DNA of 64,000 nt, from assembly GCF_014203795.1 (NCBI RefSeq), contig NZ_JACHJU010000005.1, positions 1 through 64,000 of the forward strand, in the 5' to 3' direction. This document shows positions 24,455 through 52,683 of this stretch, one piece after another; position 1 is the first letter of the stretch; the number at the start of each line of letters is the position of its first letter. The notes under the pieces are model-generated. The model ran no database searches. It had not been told where the DNA came from and saw only the letters and a list, made by a program, of their open reading frames with translations. This DNA is from Streptosporangium album (GTDB lineage Bacteria; Actinomycetota; Actinomycetes; Streptosporangiales; Streptosporangiaceae). Both the position numbers and the translations under genes were made by a program.

Positions 24455-24487
24455 GCCGAGGATGCTAACGCCAGTTTCCTGCGGAGA

Positions 24488-24650
24488 ACGGGTGCCGTAG
24501 TCTCATCGGTGGCGACGGCAAGGGAGGAAGCCGGTGAGAATCCGGCGCGGTCCCGCCACTGTAACCGGGGAGCGAACCCCACCCAGGCCACGGTCCGGCG
24601 ACGGACGGGAAGGCCGGGGGGAGCACCGATCCGGGAGCCAGGAGACTCCA
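24488..24650 (+). promoter_or_regulatory. Cobalamin (B12) riboswitch upstream of cobN
   Basis: Landmarks in order: GGTGCCG (24491), AAGGGAGGAAGCCGGTGAGA (24520-24539) with ATCCGGC, the GCCACTGTAA core (24555-24564), a closing GAGCACC (24621-24627), and the GCCAGGAGAC B12-box end (24637-24646). These are the conserved parts of the adenosylcobalamin element. It reads toward the leader ORF and cobN and should lower their expression when cobalamin is plentiful. No second copy was found for the divergent cobG operon. Confidence 0.92.
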
Positions 24651-24702
24651 GCCGTCGTAGCCGACGACGACCCGGGGCGAGGACCCCGAGGGAGGAAGCT
24701 CC

Positions 24703-24827
24703 GTGCGTTCTTCGCCGTTCCCGCAGCAGCTCGTGGCACCGCCGTGCCCCGCCGCCGGGCCTCATCCGCCGTTCCCGCGCGGTCCCCTGTCACCGGCGAG
24801 CCCCATCGCCCGGCCGGAGCGTGGCGC

Positions 24828-24831
<4 letters not shown>
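24703..24831 (+). CDS. Candidate leader ORF coupled to cobN
   Basis: A GTG at 24703 follows a very strong GGAGGAAG site (24691-24697). It opens a 42-codon frame, VRSSPFPQQLVAPP..., rich in proline, whose TGA overlaps the cobN GTG (GTGA). It lies between the riboswitch and cobN. Ribosomes translating it would deliver to the cobN start, so the riboswitch could control cobN by masking this first site. No peptide family is recognised, and GC-rich DNA often gives proline-rich frames. The Shine-Dalgarno sequence and exact overlap are the only evidence. Confidence 0.45.
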
Positions 24832-28496
<3,665 letters not shown>

Positions 28497-28724: not shown

Positions 28725-28764
28725 GTCAGAAGCGGCTTGTCAGAAGCGGCTTGTCAGGAGCGGC
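28723..28764. repeat. Three tandem 14-bp repeats covering a stop codon
   Basis: TTGTCAGAAGCGGC occurs at 28723-28736 and 28737-28750, then with one change (GGAG for GAAG) at 28751-28764. On the minus strand each unit contains TGA in the context of the hydroxylase gene's final codons. The true stop (28754-28756) lies in the unit nearest the gene. Slippage duplication is the simplest origin. Confidence 0.85.
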
Positions 28765-29703
28765 GGCCGAACCAGCGGCGAGCCTTGGCGGGCGTGGCCG
28801 CCTCCCCGCCGGCCGCTGCCGTGGCCCTGGCGAAGCCCGCCTGCGGCTGGACGGTCGGCTCGCAGGCGTCCAGGGGGACCGGGTCACCCATGGTCACCAC
28901 GATCTTGCGGGGGCCCTTGAACGACTCGCGGGCGTGGGCGGAGAGGATGTTGTCGACGATCAGAATGTCACCCGGACGCCACGTTTCTCTCACCGTCGCC
29001 TGCCGGTAGGCCTCGTCGATGGCCTCGACGTCCTCCTTGGAGATCGGCTCGCCGTCGCCGTAGGCGGTGTTGAAGGGCAGATTCTCGTGACCGAGATCCT
29101 CCACGAACACCTCGCGGATCTCCTCATCGAGCGACCACTCGTTCCAGAAGACCGTGTGGTTGAACCAGACCTCCTCACCGGTACCGGGGTGGCGGATGGT
29201 CGCCGAGCGGCGCTGCACGGTGCGGAGCTGGTCAGCGCCCACCCACTCGTGGGCGATGTGGTTGGCCGCGCAGTAGGCGGCGACCTCTTGCGCATGTCGG
29301 TCACCGGGGTCGCGCCGCCCTCGTCGGGAGCGATCAGGCAGCCGAACATCAGCAGCCCGGGGAAGCTGAGCGCGTAACTGTTCTCGTTGTGCGGGCGGAT
29401 CGTCTGCGACGGCGGCAGGTCGGTGGACGAGTAGACGTCCTTGCCGAAGTGGCTGCGCGGAGTGGCTTTCTCGACGTATCCGGCGAGCTTGGAGATCAGG
29501 GCGTCGCGTACCTCGGCGAAGTCCTCCACGCCCTTCACGGGCAGCCCCCGGAGATAGAGGGCGCCGTGCTCGTCCAGACCCGCGCGGATGGCGTCGCGGT
29601 TCTCCCGCAGCCAGTCGCAGGTCTCGCCCAGATCCCCGCCCTGGGCGTCGGCCGCGGCGGGACGGCCGTCCCTGATCTCCCAGGCGATGGTGGCGGTGTT
29701 CAA
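28754..29703 (-). pseudogene. TauD/SyrP-like Fe(II)/2-oxoglutarate hydroxylase with single-base frameshift
   Basis: A TTG start at 29703 overlaps the NRPS stop (TTGA). The N-terminal frame reads [32 protein letters not shown] and the HxE iron motif in RPHNENSYALSFPG, to GGATPVTDMRK near 29300. The protein then continues in the next frame: VAAYCAANHIAHEWVGADQL, NHTVFWNEWSLDEEIR and DNILSAHARESFKGPRKI with the distal His, ending at 28754. Restoring one G in the AAGAGGTC run near 29290 rejoins the frames into about 316 residues. SyrP-type enzymes beta-hydroxylate amino acids bound to NRPS carriers. The break may be a real mutation or a sequence error. Confidence 0.8.
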
Positions 29704-32700
29704 GATGCGTGGGTCCTTTCCAGCGTTTCGATGCCGATGAGGTCGTCGGGCTTCGCGTCGGGCACCTCGTCGTCGAAGCGCGCCAGGGTCCGGATCCGGA
29801 GGCCGGCGAATACCAGCAGGGCCATGCCGAGGCCGCACAGCAGGTAGAGCAGTCCGATCCCGCGCCCCGGCCCGGTGCCGATGATCGCGCCGACGGTGCT
29901 CGCGAGCGGGCCGCCGGTGGCCAGCAACGGGTCCAGGAGCGGGCCGGCGAGCGGGGCGATGACGCCGAAGCCGATCGGGACGGTAGCAGCAGCGATCATG
30001 GTGTTGACCGCGATGATCCGGCCCTGGAAGCGCTGCGGCACCTTCACCAGGATGATCGTCATGATCGTGCCGTTGATCAGAGCCAGCGCGAAGGACATGC
30101 CGAAGGCGCCGACGCCGATCAGCCAGAGGTTGGCCTGCAGGCCGGTCAGCAGGCCCGCGACCGACATCAGCATCGTCGCGGCGATCGCGCCGCGCAGCCT
30201 GCGGTGGGTCGGGCCGCCCCACAGGCTCATGACGACACCGCCGGTGACCGCGCCCGCGCCGGCCGCGACCGCGACCGCCCCGGCCGCCTGGAGCGAGGCG
30301 AAGGAGAGGACGAGCGGCGAGATCATGACGAACATGGGCGCGAGGAAGAGGTTCACCCCGGCGAAGAAGAACAGCATGCTGCGGAAGCTCCGGTGCCCCA
30401 GCGAGAACCGGAAGCCGTTCGCGATCTCCACCGAGATCGGCTCGCGGCGGCGCAGCCCCAGCGTGGTGGGGAACTTGACGAGCAGGACCACGATGACGGC
30501 GAACGCGTAGGCGGCCACCTGGATGGTCAGGATGCCCTTCAGCCCGACCGCGGCGAGCAGGCCGACCGCGATGAGCGGTACCAGGAACTGGGCGGTGCCG
30601 ATCGCCAGCTGCACGATGCCGGTGGCGTGCCCGAGATAGCGTTTGGGCACCAACTGGGGGATCGACGCCTGGTAGGCGAGTCGCTGGAACGTCACGGAGA
30701 CCGAGACGAAAGCTATCAGCACGTAGAGCGGGCCGACCGAGAGCCGGTCGGTCAGCAGCAGGCCGAGCATCACCGCCTGCGTCACACCCGACACCAGGTC
30801 ACCGGCGATCATCACCCGCCGCCGGTCGTAGCGGTCGACCACGGCGCCCGCCAGCGGGGCCACGATGATGCCCGGGACCAGAGCGAGCAGGGCGATGAGC
30901 CCGAAGTGAGCCAGTGATCCGGTGATGGTGTAGATCCAGATCGGCACCGCGAACTCGGTGAGGGCCGACCCGGTGAGCGAGATCAGCTGCCCCAGCGCGA
31001 CGGGCAGGAACCGGCGCATGCTCGGCTCGCGCTCCTGGTGCACGGCCTGCCGCTCCACGCTGTCCTGGAGCCACCAGGTGCCACCCGCCTCGCGCGAGTG
31101 CTCCCGGCGCCAGGCCTCGTCGGCGGTGTGGGTGCCCGTGAGGATCGCCGCGAGCTCGTCGGCACGGTACTTGGGGAAGAAGTGGCCCGCTTCGTCGATG
31201 ACGACCAGCGACGACGAGCCGGACAGGAAGCACCACTCCTTGAAGCGCTCCTGGTAGAACTCGGTGCTCGGGTCGCGCTCGCCGACGACCGAGATGATCG
31301 GCGCCTTCAGCGGCCGCTGCTCGGTCGACAGGAGTCTGGTGAAGTGCTCCTCGGCCATCCGGCCGTCCTGGCGCATCAGCTCGACGGTGAAGGCCGCCTG
31401 CTCCTCGTCCAGCCCCGACATGTCGCCGCCGAGCGCGCGCAGCTCGGCCGCGATGGTGCGGGTGCCGTGCAGGCGGTCGTTGACCAGATCGCTGAGCGAG
31501 CCGAGGAAGCGGCCCTTGGGCTTGGCGAACGGGAAGATGCCACCCAGGTAGAGGGCGTCCAGCTCCCGTCCGGACGCCTCGATGCGCTGGGCCAGCTCCA
31601 CGGCCAGCGCGCTGCCGGGGGCGCAGTGCCCGTAGACCACGATCGGGCCTCTGATGTGTTCGGCGATCTCCTCGACGCAGCGCCTCGCCACCTCCGCGTA
31701 GGGAAGCTGCTCCTCGTCACCCGGCTCGCGCCCGGGGGCGGCGACCGCGTAGAGGGAGTATCCGGCGGGCATCGCGTCGGCGAGCGTCTGGTAGACGACC
31801 GCGTTGGCGCCGCCGTACGGCACGCAGATGATGGAGCCGACGCGGTCCTTGGCCTCGATCGGGCGGGTCAGCTCGGCCAGCATCCGGCGCTGCACGACCG
31901 TGTCGCCCCGGCGCTCGGTGACGAGCTCGGCGAGCTCGGCGAGCGTGGGATGCTTGAACATCTCCAGCACGCCGATCGGCGGCTTGCTCTCGGGGAAGGC
32001 CTTGCGCATCCTCGCCACGACCTGGGTGGCCAGGAGCGAGTGACCGCCCAGGTCGAAGAAGTTGTCGCCGGTGCCGACCCTTTCGAGGTCGAGGACACCC
32101 GCCCAGATGCCGGCGATGGCCTCCTCGATCGGACCGTCCGGCGCGATGTGACCGGGCCGTTGGTCCAGACGCTCGGGCTCGGGGTCCGGCAGCGCCTTCC
32201 GGTCGACCTTGCCGTGGGCCTGGAGCGGGAAACGGTCGAGCCAGGCGAACCGGCCGGGGACCATGTACTCGGGGAGCAACTCCAGCAGGTGCGCCCGCAG
32301 CTCCGCCACCGGGCTCTCCTCCGCGCCCGGCTCCTTCTCCAGCCAGGCGATGAGGCGGTCGTCGCGCAGGTCCACGACGCCCTGGACGACCCCGGGGAGC
32401 GTGCCGAGCGCCGCCTCGACCTCGCCGAGCTCCACCCGGTAGCCGCGGATCTTCACCTGGTGGTCGGTGCGGCCGAGAAACTCCAGCCGCCCGTCGTCGA
32501 GCCTGCGGACCAGGTCGCCCGTACGGTACATCCGCGTTCCCGGCGCGCCGTACGGGTCGGCGACGAAACGCTCGGCGGTCAACGCCGGACGGCCGAGGTA
32601 GCCGCGGGCCAGGGTGTCGCCGCCGATGTAGAGCTCTCCCGCGACGCCCGGCGGGACCAGACGGAGCGCCTGGTCCAGCACGTAGACGCGGACGTCGGGC

Positions 32701-35120
32701 AGCGGCCGGCCGATGGGCCAGGCCGTACCGGGCGCGGGCGCGGCGGGGTCCACCCGCTCGGTGGTCACCGCGACGACCGTCTCGGTCGGGCCGTAGCTGT
32801 TGAAGATCGCGCAGCCCGCACGGGAGGCCAGGTCACGGACCCAGGCGGTCGGCGACGCCTCGCCCGCCAGGACGAGCGCGCGGCGTGGCAGCAGCCGCTC
32901 GGGCTCCACCTCCGCGCCCAGCGCGGCGAGGTGGGAGGGGGGCATCTTCAGGTAGTCGAGGTCCTGCAGGGCCTCGGCCAGCTCGGGTCCCGAGCCGCGG
33001 CGGGGCAGCTGGTGAAGGGTGCCGCCCCCGGTGAGCGGCAGATAGAACATCAGCATGCTGAAGTCGAAGGCGAGCGACTGGAGCAACCCGAAGGCGGCAC
33101 CGGGCACGATGTCGTACTCCTCGCGGATGTACTCCAGGTAGGCCACGATGTGCCGGTGCTGCACACCGACGCCCTTGGGCCGCCCGGTGGTGCCGGAGGT
33201 GTAGATCACATAGGCGAGGTCACCGGGGCCCGCGAGCGGTTCCAGCGGCGTGTCGTCGCCCTCGTCCAGCCGGTCCAGCTCGACGGTCGGACCGGTGAAA
33301 CCCTCGGTCCGGTCCCGCAGCGCCGAGTCGGTGACCAGCACGACGGCCGACGAGTCGGCGAGCAGGAAGTCCAGCCGGTCACGGGGCTGCTCGGGGTCGA
33401 GCGGCAGGTAGGCGCCGCCCGCCTTGAGCACCGCGAGGATCGCGACGGCGGCGTCCACGGTCCCGTCCAGGCAGATCGCGACGCGCGAGTCGGGGCCGAC
33501 GCCGGAATCCCGTAGACGCCTGGCCAGCCGGTTCGCCCGGCGGTGCAGCTCGGCGAAGGTGAGCGACCGCTCCCCGGCGACGAGGGCGAGCGCGTCCGGG
33601 GTCCGTGCCGCCTGGGCCTCGGCCATCTCTCCGAGCGTGCGGTGCGCGGGCCGCCAGATGCGGGTGCCCGCCCAGGCGCCCAGCAGCGACTCGCGCTCCC
33701 CGTCGCCGAGCAGCGACACCTCCGACAGACGGCGGTCGCGGTCGGAGACGGCCTCCTGGAGGAACCGCAGCATCGAGCGTTCGATCCGCTCGATCGACGC
33801 GGGCTCGAACAGGTCGGTGCGGTAGGTGAAGAGGCCGTCCACCCCCTCGTCGGTCTCGGTGAGGTAGAGCGCGAGGTCGAACTGGGTGATCGCGAGCGGC
33901 GGATCGAACGGGCCGACGCCCAGCCCGCCGAGGAACTCCTCACGCTCCACCAGGTTGGTGAGCGTGAAGGTCGCCTGGAAGATCGCCGAGCGGCCGGGGT
34001 CCCGTTCCACACGCAGGTCGTTGACGAGCTGGTGGAAGGGATAGCCCTGGTGGGCGAGCGCGCCGAGCACGGTCTCCCTGGTGCGGAGCAGGTGCTCGGC
34101 GACGGTCGGGTCGTCACCGGTACGGCTGCGCAGGGTCACCATGTTGACGAAGGATCCGACCACGTCCTCCAGCTCGCGGTAGGGCCGTCCGGCCACCGGC
34201 GAGCCCACCGCGAAGTCGTCCTGGCCCGCGTGCCGGGCGAGCACCGCCTGGTAGGCCGAGAGCAGGGTCATGTAGAGGGTGGCGCCGTGCGCCCTGCCGA
34301 GCTCGCGCACGGCCTCGATCAGTTCGGCGTCCCAGGCGAAGGTGTGGACCGCGCCGTCGAAGCGCTGTTCGGCCGGGCGCGGATGGTCGGTCGGCAGCTC
34401 CAGGTCGGACAGCCCGGCCAGCTGCTCGCGCCAGAAGGCGACGTCGGGCTCGACGTCGGGTCCCGCCAGCCGTTCCCGCTCCCACACGGCGAAGTCGCCG
34501 AACTGGACGGTCTGCTCGGGCAGCGTCGCCGTCGTGCCCTCACGGAGCCCGCCGTACAGCCTGAGCAGCTCACCGAGCATGATCTCCAGGGACTGGCCGT
34601 CGCTCACGATGTGGTGGACGGCGAGCAGGAGCACGTGGTCGTCGGGTCCGACGCGGACCAGGACCGCCCGCAGCAGCGTGTCGGTCGCCAGGTCGAAGGG
34701 GCGGCTCAGCTCCTCGCCGACGAGCTCCGAGGCCCGCTCGGCGCCGTCCGCTTCGATGACCTTCAGCACGGCGGGCCCCGGCCCGTCGACGACGACCCTC
34801 GGCTGCCCGTCCTGGGTGGTGGGGAACCGCATCCGCAGGGCCTCATGCCTGGCGGTCAGCGCCGTCAGCGCCTCCTGCAGGAGGGCGGTGTCCAGCGGAC
34901 CCGTGAGGCGCACGGTCAGCGGGATCGTGTAGGCGGTGTTCCCTGGAGCCAGCTGCTCCATGAACCACAGCCGTTCCTGCCCGCTGGACGGCGGCGGATC
35001 GGTCCCCTCAGGGCGTTGCTGAACGGTGGCGCTCGCGGCCCGGCCACGCAGTCGCTGCGACAGGAGTGCGCGTTTGTCCGCCGGGAGGGCGACGGCCCGT
35101 TCTGACAGCTGCTCGGTCAT
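29700..35120 (-). CDS. NRPS module fused to a transporter: C-A-T-TE-MFS
   Basis: One intact frame encodes 1806 residues. C domain about 45-470 (HHIVSDG, His169-Gly175). A domain about 490-980 ([11 protein letters not shown] near 640, NSYGPTE near 775, [17 protein letters not shown] near 970). Carrier about 1000-1070 ([13 protein letters not shown], Ser1028). Thioesterase about 1090-1330 with GHCAPG (Cys1166 at the nucleophile site instead of Ser), GERDP (Asp1283) and EAGHFF (His1313). MFS transporter about 1370-1790 with roughly 12 helices, [12 protein letters not shown] as the loop 2-3 motif, and a short acidic tail. By hand alignment the A-domain code is D-F-L-K-V-A-S-V-A, unassigned. It should add the second residue, release the product, and perhaps export it. 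The hydroxylase gene overlaps its stop; the A-T gene lies 45 bp upstream. Confidence 0.9.
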
Positions 35121-35165
35121 CCGAGGCTTTTCCTTCCTAGGGGATTATCGGCTCTGCTCAGGAGG

Positions 35166-37003
35166 TCAGGAGGTCTGTTCTTCGATGTCCGCGATCAGCA
35201 GGGCCTCGACGGCGTCGGCCAGCCTTTCGACTGTGGGGTTGGTGAAGACCGCGTCCACCGGGATCTGCAGGTCCACGGCCGCTCTGATCCGGGAGACGAC
35301 CCTGATGGCCAGCAGTGAGTTGCCGCCGAGGGCGAAGAAGTCGTCGTGTACGCCGATCCGGTCCAGGCCGAGCACTTCGGTCCAGATCTCGGCGACCAGT
35401 TCCTCGGCTTCGGTGTGGGGCTCCTGTCGCGCGGTGGTGGGTTCCTGCCATGCGGGTGCGGGCAGGGCGCGCCGGTCGATCTTGCCGTTGTGGTTGAGGG
35501 GTAGTGCGTCCAGGACGACGAAGGCGGAGGGGACCATGTAGGCGGGCAGTGTCTCTTCGGCGAATCGTCGTAGCTGTGCGGTGAGGTCGGTGTTCGTGGT
35601 GGCGTCATCTGCGGGCCGGTGTGGGACCACATAGGTGACGAGGCGTTTGTCGCCGGGTTGGTCTTCTCTGACGAGGGTGGTGTTCTGGGCGAGGGCGGGG
35701 TGGCGGGCGAGGTTGGTGTCGATTTCGCCGAGTTCGATGCGGATGCCGCGGATTTTGACTTGGTCGTCGGCGCGGCCGAGGTAGTCGATGAGGCCGTTGG
35801 GGAGCCATCGGGCGAGGTCGCCGGTGCGGTACATGCGTGAGCCGGGTTCGTCGTAGGGGCAGGCGACGAAGCGTTCGGCGGTGAGGTCGGGGCGGCCGAG
35901 GTAGCCGCGGGCCAGATGGTCGCCGGCGATGTAGAGCTCGCCGGGGGCGCCTTGGGGGACGGGGCGGAGGTGTTGGTCGAGGATGTAGGCGCGGGTGTTG
36001 TCGAGGGGGCGGCCGATCGGGACGAGGGGTCCGGGTTCGGTGATGTGGTGGGCGGTGACGTAGATGGTGGTCTCGGTGGGGCCGTAGCCGTTGTGGATGT
36101 TGCCGCCCGCGAGCAGGACGCGTTCGACGGTGGCAGGAGAGGCGGCTTCGCCGGCGATCCACAGCTCCGGGATCTTCGCGAGTGCGGCGGGGGAGTCCTC
36201 CGCCAGGACGTTGAACAGGCCGGTGGTCAGGAAGATCGCGGTGACCTGTTCGTCTTTCAGTGCCCATTGGATGACGGAGGTGTCGACCACGCCGGGTGGG
36301 GCTACGACGATGGTTCCGCCGTTGAGGAGGGGGACCCATAGTTCGTACATGGAGACGTCGAAGGAGGGGCGGTGTGGAACAGGACGCGTTGCTGGTGGGG
36401 GCTGTTCCACAGGTGGTCGGCGGCGAAGGAGGCGACGTTGCGGTGGGTGACGGCGACGCCTTTGGGTTCTCCGGTGGAGCCGGAGGTGAACATCGTGTAT
36501 GCCAGCCGGTGTGGGTCGATGTCCAGGTTCAGGTTCTCGGGGTCGCTTTCGGTCCCGACGACCATGGTGTGGAGGTGGTGCATCAGGTCGTGGGTGGTGT
36601 GGGTGGTGTCGGTTCCCCCGGTCTCGGCCTGGAGGTGGTGCATCAGGTCGTGGGTGGTGTGGGTGGTGTCGGTGACGATGACGGGGGCGCCGGTCTTTTC
36701 GGCGATCCAGCGCATTCTGCTCAGGGGTAGGTCGGGGTGGAGGGGGACGTAGGTGCCGCCGGCTTTGATGACCGCGAGCAGGGTGACCATCACGTCGGCT
36801 GATCGTTGCAGGAGTGCCATGACCGGGGTTTCGGGTCCGACGCCGGCGGCTGTCAGTCTGCGGGCCAGGGCGTTGGCTCGTCCGTTCAGTTCGGCGGCGG
36901 TGAGTCGGGTCTGGCCGCTGACCACCGCTTCGGCGTCTGGAGCCGCCGCCACCCTCGCCTCGAACAGTTCGGCCAGGTTGTTTCTGAAGGAAAGCGGGTT
37001 CAC
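35166..37003 (-). pseudogene. Stand-alone NRPS A-T didomain, frameshifted
   Basis: GTG 37003 ([18 protein letters not shown]) follows GGAGATTCC. The first frame covers A1-A3 ([46 protein letters not shown]) to VLFHTAP. Near 36370 the reading must shift, then continues with [63 protein letters not shown], and a carrier with [15 protein letters not shown], ending at 35166. The lost bases equal one modulo three (probably a CCN-CAN codon region). Without the shift it would be a typical loading A-T protein of about 610 residues. An unusual in-frame 20-residue duplication lies near residues 115-150. There is no C domain, so it probably supplies the first amino acid to the downstream module. Confidence 0.85.
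36570..36673. repeat. 44-bp direct repeat with 60-bp period inside the A domain
   Basis: Bases 36570-36613 recur exactly at 36630-36673. In the coding frame this repeats [13 protein letters not shown], separated by QAETGGT, so the A domain has a 20-residue tandem insertion between motifs A2 and A3. The period is a multiple of three, so frame is kept. Confidence 0.9.
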
Positions 37004-37199
37004 GGAATCTCCAGATTCAGGGCACAACAATATGATAAAAGAACCGATGAAGGCCATTCTGCTCAGCCAGGCAGAAAAGCGACATGCTGTGAACGCGGCT
37101 CGCGAAGGAGGCGGCGTCTGCGCGTGCGGGGGGCTCCGGGGCCGTTCAGGGCATCGGGAGGCTGCGGGGACGCATGTCGGTCCAGTTCGCATTGAGACG
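37004..37199. promoter_or_regulatory. NRPS upstream region, cut by an IS
   Basis: About 200 bp lie between the A-T start and the IS left end. They should contain the promoter for the three-gene NRPS unit. An AT-rich patch (CAACAATATGATAAAAGAA) sits near 37026-37044. Any upstream regulator or MbtH gene would lie beyond the IS and is not seen. Confidence 0.35.
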
Positions 37200-38189
37200 T
37201 TGTCAGCAACGGTCGATGACCGTGTGTAGCCGATCACGGCGGGCGTGGGAGTGATCAAGTAGAGAAAAGCGTGAAGCCCCTGGTAGGGGTGGGTCTTGTC
37301 GAAGGATCCACCGCACCGCACACAAGGGCTTCACGTGACCTCCAGTATCACCTACACAGCCGAGTTGGACATGCCGCGCGAGGTTGTGCTGTTTCTGGCC
37401 GGGCTGTTGCGCGCCGAGCGGGTACGGCGCCGCACCCGCGCGGGCACTCGGGCGCTGGGCGAGTTCAAGCAGGCCGTTCTGATCATCCGCTGGCTGGTGG
37501 ACGGCGCTCGGATCGCCCGGCCGGCCGCCGATAACGCCATCTCGCACGCGACCTGTGATCGGTACGTCGAAGAAGGGGTCACCGTATTGAAGGCCCAGGC
37601 GCCGACGCTACAGGAGGCGCTCACGGCGGCGAAGGCCGCCGGCTACACCCACCTGCATCTGGATGGCACGCTGATCGAAACCGACCGCTGCCGCGCCCTG
37701 GGCCCGAACGGCGCCGACCTGTGGTGGAGTGGAAAACACAAGCAGCACGGCGGCAACATTCAGGTCCTGTCCAGCCCCGGCGGCGACCCGCTGTGGACTT
37801 CTGAGGTACGGCCCGGCCGTGAACACGATCTCACCTGTGCCCGCCTGCACGGCCTCCTCGACCCGCTGGCCAAGGCCGCCGAGGACGGGCTGATCACGTT
37901 GGCCGACCTCGGCTACGTCGATGCGGGTATGGGGTTTCGCCTGCCGTACAAGAGGTCTCGGGGTGGCACACTCACCGACGATCAGATCCAGTACAACAAG
38001 GTCCACGGTGCGCTCCGAGCCCTCGCCGAACGAGCGAACGCCCAGCTCAAGATGCGGTTCAAGGCACTGCGGAACGTCAGCAAGTGCCCTTGGAAGATCG
38101 GCGGTATCGTCGCCGCGGCGCTCGTCCTCTTCCACCGGGAGCAAGCTCACAAGCAGCTGTCACCCAGCGTGAACGCCGGTTGCTGACAA
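37200..38189 (+). mobile_element. IS5-group insertion sequence, copy 1
   Basis: Imperfect terminal repeats TTGTCAGCAAC (37200-37210) and GTTGCTGACAA (38179-38189) bracket one transposase gene of 284 residues. No clear target duplication is seen. It is related to, but clearly diverged from, the copy at 51677-52683, so these are two separate arrivals rather than a recent duplication. Confidence 0.8.
37335..38186 (+). CDS. IS5-family DDE transposase (DDE_Tnp_4 type)
   Basis: GTG 37335 (VTSSITYTAELD) is supported by the matching start of the second copy. The catalytic Asp pattern is visible in HLHLDGTLIETDRC and ITLADLGYVDAG; the late acidic residue lies in RALAERANAQLKMRFKALR. The NGADLWWSGKHKQHGGNIQV block is typical of the group. 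At 283 residues it looks intact, with no internal stop. The N-terminal region should carry the DNA-binding helices (FKQAVLIIRWLVDG). Confidence 0.88.
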   Translation: MTSSITYTAELDMPREVVLFLAGLLRAERVRRRTRAGTRALGEFKQAVLIIRWLVDGARIARPAADNAISHATCDRYVEEGVTVLKAQAPTLQEALTAAKAAGYTHLHLDGTLIETDRCRALGPNGADLWWSGKHKQHGGNIQVLSSPGGDPLWTSEVRPGREHDLTCARLHGLLDPLAKAAEDGLITLADLGYVDAGMGFRLPYKRSRGGTLTDDQIQYNKVHGALRALAERANAQLKMRFKALRNVSKCPWKIGGIVAAALVLFHREQAHKQLSPSVNAGC

Positions 38190-51676: not shown

Positions 51677-52683
51677 GTGAACCTTTCCCGGTGATCGTCG
51701 ATCACGCTGCGTAGCCCCTGGATCGTTCTCGCCTCCTGGCCCCGGACATGGGTGAAGCCCCTGCTAGAACTGGTCTTTGCGAAGAGATCAAGTTCACAGC
51801 GAGAGGCTTCACTTGCCGTCCAGTATCACCTATACCGCCGTGCTCGACGTCCGCCGGGAGACCGCGCTACACCTGTCGCACCTGCTCCAGCAGCACCGAC
51901 AGATGATCGGCACGCGCAGGAACCGGCGAGCGCTGAGTTGCTTCAAGCAGGCCGTGATGGTGCTCCGGTGGTTTCTCAATGGCACCCGCATCAAGCAGCT
52001 GACCTGTGACAACCACATCGGTAGATCGACGGCCTACCGGCTGCTGCACGAGGGCATCGATGTCCTGGCGGCGCAGGCCCCGGACCTGAAGACCGCGTTG
52101 GAGAGCGCAGCCAAGGCCGGGCTGACGCATCTCAACCTGGACGGCACGCTGATCTACACCGACCGAATCTCCACCTCCGGGCCCAACGGCGCCGACCTGT
52201 ACTGGTCGGGCAAGCACAAGCACCACGGCGGCAACGTTCAAGTCGTCTCCACGCCGGACGGCTGGCCGATCTGGGTGTCGGCGGTCCGGCCGGGCCGGGA
52301 GCACGACATGACCTGCGCCCGCACCCACGGCCTGCTGGAGGACCTGTCGCTCACCGCGACCGAGACCGGCCTGATCACGCTCACCGACCTGGGCTACGAG
52401 GGGGCCAGGGAGGTGTTCAGGATGCCGTTCAAGAAGCCTAAGGACGGCGAACTCACCGAGGCTCAGCGCGCTTTCAACCAGCTCATACGGGGCATCCATG
52501 GGATCGGCGAACGGGCAAACACCCTGCTCAAGACCACGTTCAAAGCCTTGCGGCGAGTCAGCCTCGACCCGAGCCGGATCACCCAAATCGCCGCCGCAGC
52601 CCTCGTCCTGCTCCAGCTGGAGCACGGACGGATCGTGTAAGGCGATCACGAACCGCAACCAGCGGTTACACGGAAAGGTTCAG
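51677..52683 (+). mobile_element. IS5-group insertion sequence, copy 2
   Basis: Terminal repeats TGAACCTTTCC (51678-51688) and GGAAAGGTTCA (52672-52682) flank one transposase gene. The termini differ from those of the first copy while the proteins are clearly homologous, so these are two different IS species of one group. No clear target duplication is visible. It separates the graveyard from the Nramp/oxalate pair. Confidence 0.8.
51813..52640 (+). CDS. IS5-family DDE transposase, second species
   Basis: The TTG at 51813 (LPSSITYTAVLD) matches the start of the first copy, giving 275 residues. Blocks shared with copy 1: NLDGTLIYTDRI, NGADLYWSGKHKHHGGN, VRPGREHDMTCARTHGLL, ITLTDLGYEG and GERANTLLKTTFKALRRVS. 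By eye the two proteins are about 55-60% identical. It appears intact. Confidence 0.88.
   Translation: MPSSITYTAVLDVRRETALHLSHLLQQHRQMIGTRRNRRALSCFKQAVMVLRWFLNGTRIKQLTCDNHIGRSTAYRLLHEGIDVLAAQAPDLKTALESAAKAGLTHLNLDGTLIYTDRISTSGPNGADLYWSGKHKHHGGNVQVVSTPDGWPIWVSAVRPGREHDMTCARTHGLLEDLSLTATETGLITLTDLGYEGAREVFRMPFKKPKDGELTEAQRAFNQLIRGIHGIGERANTLLKTTFKALRRVSLDPSRITQIAAAALVLLQLEHGRIV

Follow-up and report, generated by a model that had tools for sequence, protein, structure and literature searches.

What does a nonribosomal peptide synthetase (NRPS) release when its terminal thioesterase (TE) uses a cysteine nucleophile and is itself fused to an exporter? The question is raised by a C-A-T-TE-MFS gene (condensation, adenylation, carrier, TE and MFS exporter domains) on the minus strand at 29700..35120 of a 64 kb stretch, hereafter the window, from the 9.0 Mb, 14-contig genome of the actinomycete Streptosporangium album. 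A first-pass annotation of the DNA had proposed an ObiF-like TE closing a β-lactone on a dipeptide whose second residue is hydroxylated by a neighbouring enzyme. Its observations are confirmed, its comparison with ObiF stands up well and its interpretation is partly supported. The architecture, synteny, TE class features and lesions set out below are direct observations; the reading that we build on them from sequence, with a probability of roughly 0.45, is that the system would make a peptide with a hydroxylated Asp-like end, closed to a β-lactone and exported by the fused MFS domain.

The synthetase is intact: a single open frame of 1806 amino acids (aa) with no internal stop. All of its domains are recognized by Pfam and lie on the minus strand: condensation (aa 45-480; 33681..34988), adenylation (aa 501-977; 32190..33620; AMP-binding match at aa 501-842), PP-binding carrier (aa 1001-1067; 31920..32120), TE (aa 1085-1345; 31086..31868; Pfam match at aa 1097-1324) and MFS exporter (aa 1366-1806; 29703..31028; MFS_1 at 1375-1712, also recovered by domain searches). 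Its nearest named relatives in the gene tree are those of Streptosporangium minutum and S. canum. A pathway name was sought in NCBIfam and given up: the matches were general NRPS or ligase models below cut-off, except for the general amino-acid adenylation model. A detoxin/rimosamide cluster, a kind that likewise combines TauD and NRPS genes, was considered and set aside.

The TE holds the motif YGHCAPGSA with the nucleophile Cys1166 (codon 31623..31625), and alignment places the catalytic Asp1283 (31272..31274) and His1313 (31182..31184) where they had been read at first pass. Asp1283 lies at the shifted 'position II', as it is named in PMC11298585. Throughout an alignment of 83 family rows, Asp occupies position II and Gly, not Asp, occupies position I (Gly1193 in the window), while the nucleophile is Cys in 77 rows and Ser in 6. 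Y1289, R1292, E1295 and W1296 are present too, and a structural model predicts a helix at 205-215 following a strand at 191-196; at the level of sequence and predicted helix, the window TE appears to possess the α-3/10 composite helix after β7 that PMC11298585 gives as a feature of the class. Closure of a four-membered ring is known for few NRPS release domains, those with structures being ObiF1 and SulM (PMC11298585), and the window TE carries features listed for both in that paper and in PMC6668435.

ObiF1, the obafluorin synthetase (PDB 6n8e; PMC6668435), is the best match of the window TE both by sequence and by fold (Z 26.1 versus 21.6 for the best type II TE). It shares the C-A-T-TE order, a Cys nucleophile preceded by His, the shifted Asp, and Gly where other TEs hold Asp. 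It differs in that its TE is followed by an MbtH-like domain rather than an MFS exporter, and in that ObiF takes a preformed β-hydroxy amino acid, whereas the likely source of the hydroxyl in the window system is a TauD-type enzyme. The SulM TE of the sulfazecin synthetase (PDB 8w2c; PMC11298585) likewise has the Cys nucleophile, position II Asp, position I Gly and the DPxxxxYxxR[FY]x[DE]W stretch, which folds into the helix following β7; however, it reads Gln-Cys-Asn where the window has His-Cys-Ala, and it makes a β-lactam from N-sulfonated diaminopropionate, while the window gives no sign of a diaminopropionate code. The type II TEs BorB, RifR and RedJ (the last known here from the fold search only) share the shifted Asp and the overall fold, but they act on their own as proofreading enzymes, carry Ser in a GHSxG motif, and lack the Y..R..[DE]W stretch and the position I Gly pattern.

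Phylogeny with ObiF, a check that the first-pass annotation had named, gave a divided answer. A tree of the 83 rows with 13 references unites the family with ObiF1 and SulM (support 99/89, with long-branch warnings), and upon removal of SulM the family and ObiF1 stay together (96/86). Several results weigh against this placement. With SulM and three more long rows removed and a single distant outgroup row in place, ObiF1 joins the L010 copy weakly (71/43; L numbers denote fetched loci), and the tree does not settle on which side it falls (85/0). An approximately unbiased (AU) test does not reject a topology in which the family joins the type II TEs and ObiF1 and SulM stand separately (p 0.436). 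By sequence, BorB and RifR outscore SulM, and the Foldseek TM-score of RifR (0.71) exceeds that of SulM (0.64-0.67). Moreover, the nucleophile elbow is one residue longer (GXCXXG; GHCAPG in the window) than the GXCXG given for ObiF (PMC6668435) in 80 rows (74 Cys, 6 Ser), and is of standard length in three. Common descent with ObiF1 and SulM is likely, though short of proved; the weight for the likeness rests mostly on shared residues and fold. An ordinary Ser or type II TE, a placement that would have told against the first-pass annotation, is not favoured by residues, scores or trees, the AU result leaving the rival grouping open.

The terminal adenylation code D-F-L-K-V-A-S-V-A noted at first pass is reproduced by alignment. 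Its positions were mapped by hand on GrsA numbering. The pattern DFLK[VI]ASVA has Lys278 in common with Asp and Asn codes, yet is identical to none of those compared, and a literature search by code returned no match for DFLKxASVA and no substrate assigned to it. The remaining adenylation codes of the relatives with the window type are hydrophobic-looking; the terminal domain alone among those of the pathway has an Asp/Asn-like Lys278 code. SyrP-type, IBH_Asp and TBH_Asp hydroxylases of carrier-bound Asp resemble the window system in placing a PF02668 protein beside an NRPS with an Asp-like code, and the hydroxylase described here is a candidate member of their group. Its nearest solved proteins are At3g21360 (1.6e-26) and 9yut (2e-24).

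The intact form of the operon is seen in eight relatives, whose TE-MFS orthologues are 81-91% identical: MbtH, A-T-C-A-T, C-A-T-TE-MFS and a TauD-type hydroxylase. In all eight the hydroxylase is a single open frame of 350-364 aa that overlaps or abuts the NRPS gene; its association with the TE-MFS synthetase is therefore not due to chance. Domain searches find A-T-C-A-T upstream in seven, although the gene is frame-broken in S. canum (L042) and cut by a contig end in L041; S. subroseum (L045), with a single upstream A-T, is the sole exception. MbtH lies further upstream in seven (confirmed by Pfam in L044), while L041 stops earlier at its contig edge. Since an upstream A-T-C-A-T combines with the terminal C-A-T, the product of the intact form is suggested to be a tripeptide; the dipeptide of the first-pass annotation describes the reduced version in this strain.

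That a peptide is assembled can be read from the domains. The terminal carrier would hold an Asp- or Asn-like third residue, to which two residues with hydrophobic-looking codes would be joined and to which the iron- and 2-oxoglutarate-dependent hydroxylase may add a β-hydroxyl; the terminal code and the hydroxylase fit a hydroxylated last residue. The peptide would then be transferred to Cys1166, the β-hydroxyl would attack the thioester with release of a β-lactone, and the attached MFS domain would export it. Alternatively, the Cys TE might only hydrolyse, with the MFS domain exporting a linear, siderophore-like metallophore that ends in β-hydroxy-Asp. PF02668 enzymes are known to produce β-hydroxy-Asp as a chelating group, and an eLife survey describes clades of them that are still unexplored (PMC12971057); MFS export would suit a metallophore. 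As against this, no obvious siderophore uptake set stands out among the genes listed for the eight relatives' loci and for the window, in a comparison that included no family search aimed at one; a single hydroxy-Asp in a tripeptide is, from general knowledge, a weak chelator; and plain hydrolysis needs neither the Cys kept in 77 of 83 rows nor the shifted Asp kept in all. We regard hydrolysis as unlikely.

The β-lactone reading is further tested by the wider family. A scan of named genomes returned at least 570 stretches encoding relatives, and the best 80 of these, kept for locus counts, come from Streptosporangiaceae, Streptomyces, Micromonosporaceae, Pseudonocardiaceae and others. Of 250 genomes sampled from the GTDB family, 109 contain a match to the TE-MFS query at E <= 1e-60, and some of the weaker matches may be MFS only. 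Across the phylum, a sample of 395 other genomes gave one MFS-only match and, at E <= 1e-120, no further genome with TE-MFS; the sample says little, because TE-MFS does occur in named Streptomyces, Micromonospora and other genomes. The fusion was not found described in the literature searched by architecture and by code, most subscription journals being outside reach, and the literature on the β-lactone and SyrP link yielded nothing on the TE-MFS family.

The terminal codes of the 83 rows comprise 25 Ser-like, 8 Cys-like, 34 DFTKxGHVG (Asp-like), 8 DFLKxASVA, 6 DTEDIGTxI and 1 DLTKIAHVS, with one not read; the residue names are presumptive. The Ser nucleophile is found in exactly the six DTED rows, which form a single clade, so that the switch from Cys to Ser happened once. 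In L039, another locus of the Ser type, Asp likewise takes the place of Lys278, as far as its code is readable. This breadth lends some weight to another possibility: that the TE makes a different ring or bond (a larger lactone or lactam, a diketopiperazine, or an ester to another molecule) and resembles ObiF1 by descent only. Ser-, Cys-, Asp- and DTED-type residues meet nearly one active site, one four-membered-ring chemistry may not suit them all, and the longer elbow alters the oxyanion region. However, the terminal side chain offers a β-nucleophile in 41 of 82 readable rows (Ser-code, Cys-code and, if hydroxylated, window-type), and ObiF1 is still the closest fold by Z. We hold this alternative to be unlikely, though slightly less so than plain hydrolysis.

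The distribution of the hydroxylase is a difficulty for β-lactone closure on a hydroxylated last residue. Just 7 of the 80 loci have it next to TE-MFS, each of the seven with a DFLK-type code, while the Cys TE occurs throughout the family, so the tie between the two drawn at first pass does not hold. None of the 34 DFTK rows has a TauD gene within the fetched stretch: either no β-lactone is closed there or the hydroxyl comes from elsewhere, and these rows caution against expecting a β-lactone from every TE of the family. Paralogous clusters tell likewise. Another TE-MFS cluster of the window's genome (L009:6236-19901) consists of a polyketide synthase, C-A-T, C-A-T-TE-MFS and TauD, and in this and five of ten regions fetched around TauD relatives elsewhere in the genus (L172-L181), TauD adjoins a C-A-T-TE-MFS whose terminal code is that of Ser. 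Upstream, a module with the Asn-like code DLTKVGEVG is visible in L009, L176, L177, L180 and L181, L178 being cut. Three further regions (L172, L174, L175) have A(DIWQSTADD)-T-TE as the TauD neighbour. A hydroxylase beside the TE therefore need not act on the last residue, and its link to Lys278 codes is suggestive rather than general. In L179 the TauD neighbour is A(DMTKVGEVG)-T; in L173 an earlier search placed a TauD gene, yet none was shown when genes were picked. The hydroxylated last residue of the first-pass annotation is thus in keeping with code and enzyme in the window type, but the L009 arrangement shows a hydroxylase coexisting with a terminal Ser code.

Some neighbours of other family members may be recorded here. 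DUF4246, possibly another oxygenase, lies beside 3 of the 34 DFTK-type synthetases (L091, L105, L108). Genes for 2-oxoacid dehydrogenase E1 alpha, E1 beta and E2 occur in 24, 23 and 27 of the 80 loci (e.g. L104:3528-6749), perhaps for the supply of acyl starters. The giant plasmid pCLA1 of Streptomyces clavuligerus ATCC 27064 (L149) encodes a TE-MFS synthetase with a 4HBT_2 protein about 14.5 kb downstream. The third TE-MFS copy of the window's genome (L010:7298-12751) has a standard-length elbow and transposase-like genes nearby.

Extended to the whole family, β-lactone closure becomes a doubtful though consequential proposal: actinomycetes, above all Streptosporangiaceae, may hold a large family of one-piece C-A-T-TE-MFS synthetases that load, ring-close and export, releasing strained four-membered rings (β-lactones from Ser or hydroxylated Asp, perhaps β-thiolactones from Cys) that are each handed to the exporter within the same polypeptide, and the window type would bear a 3-peptidylamino-4-oxo-oxetane-2-carboxylate warhead. 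If so, NRPS β-lactone formation would be far commoner in actinomycetes than known, and terminal codes would allow product prediction. The Cys-to-Ser switch in the DTED clade offers a natural test of the role of Cys, and the joining of release domain and exporter on one chain makes direct hand-over of a reactive product testable.

In the window itself the operon is damaged. The hydroxylase said at first pass to overlap the NRPS gene is there, though broken into two pieces that lie in different frames, both on the minus strand and both matching PF02668 (TauD/TfdA; 1.2e-18 and 9.3e-18): a C-terminal piece at 28763..29305 (aa 177-354 of the S. subroseum protein) and an N-terminal piece at 29230..29697 (aa 4-161). 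The upstream A-T is split in the same manner, bearing out the frameshifts reported in two partners: Pfam and alignment place the C-terminal part of A (code DVYFWAGIY) with T at 35166..36410 and the N-terminal part at 36302..37321, again on the minus strand. The former matches the second A-T of S. minutum and L044 at 80-81% identity and the first at 61-64%, while the latter fits both A-Ts of the relatives about equally (61-63% in L044); a deletion may have fused the first and second A-T into one. No MbtH match is found anywhere in the window, and a DDE_Tnp_4 transposase (plus strand, 37296..38186) stands at the place of the relatives' MbtH gene. With MbtH missing beside the cluster, A-T-C-A-T cut to one frame-broken A-T and the hydroxylase broken, the pathway is probably not working in this strain.

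The damage is real, but the 'dying' pathway of the first-pass annotation needs tempering. Against five relatives, the two pieces of the hydroxylase have ratios of nonsynonymous to synonymous substitution (dN/dS) of 0.15-0.34 and 0.14-0.31, and the broken A-T piece has 0.23-0.59; since these still look constrained, either the frames broke recently or sequence error accounts for part of the damage. It might also be that the hydroxylase acts on another residue, or that only an inert relic of the cluster is left, in which the NRPS gene looks intact but will be lost next: of the four operon genes, three are absent or damaged in this strain, and L009 pairs the hydroxylase with an upstream Asn-like code. 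We think this quite improbable, given the hydrophobic-looking other codes of window-type relatives, the dN/dS of 0.29-0.35 for the NRPS gene against five relatives, and the full gene set that relatives keep.

A second DDE_Tnp_4 transposase (51777-52640) shows 54% identity over 272 aa to the copy at 37296-38186. The broken A domain holds a 26-base repeat (36573-36598 and 36633-36658, minus strand), its copies 60 bases apart and each with one mismatch to the search pattern; Tandem Repeats Finder gave no report of it. Elsewhere in the window, a Cobalamin riboswitch (plus strand, 24475-24667; Rfam, 87.3 bits) lies ahead of a large gene at 24534-28496, which we take to be cobalt chelatase-like.
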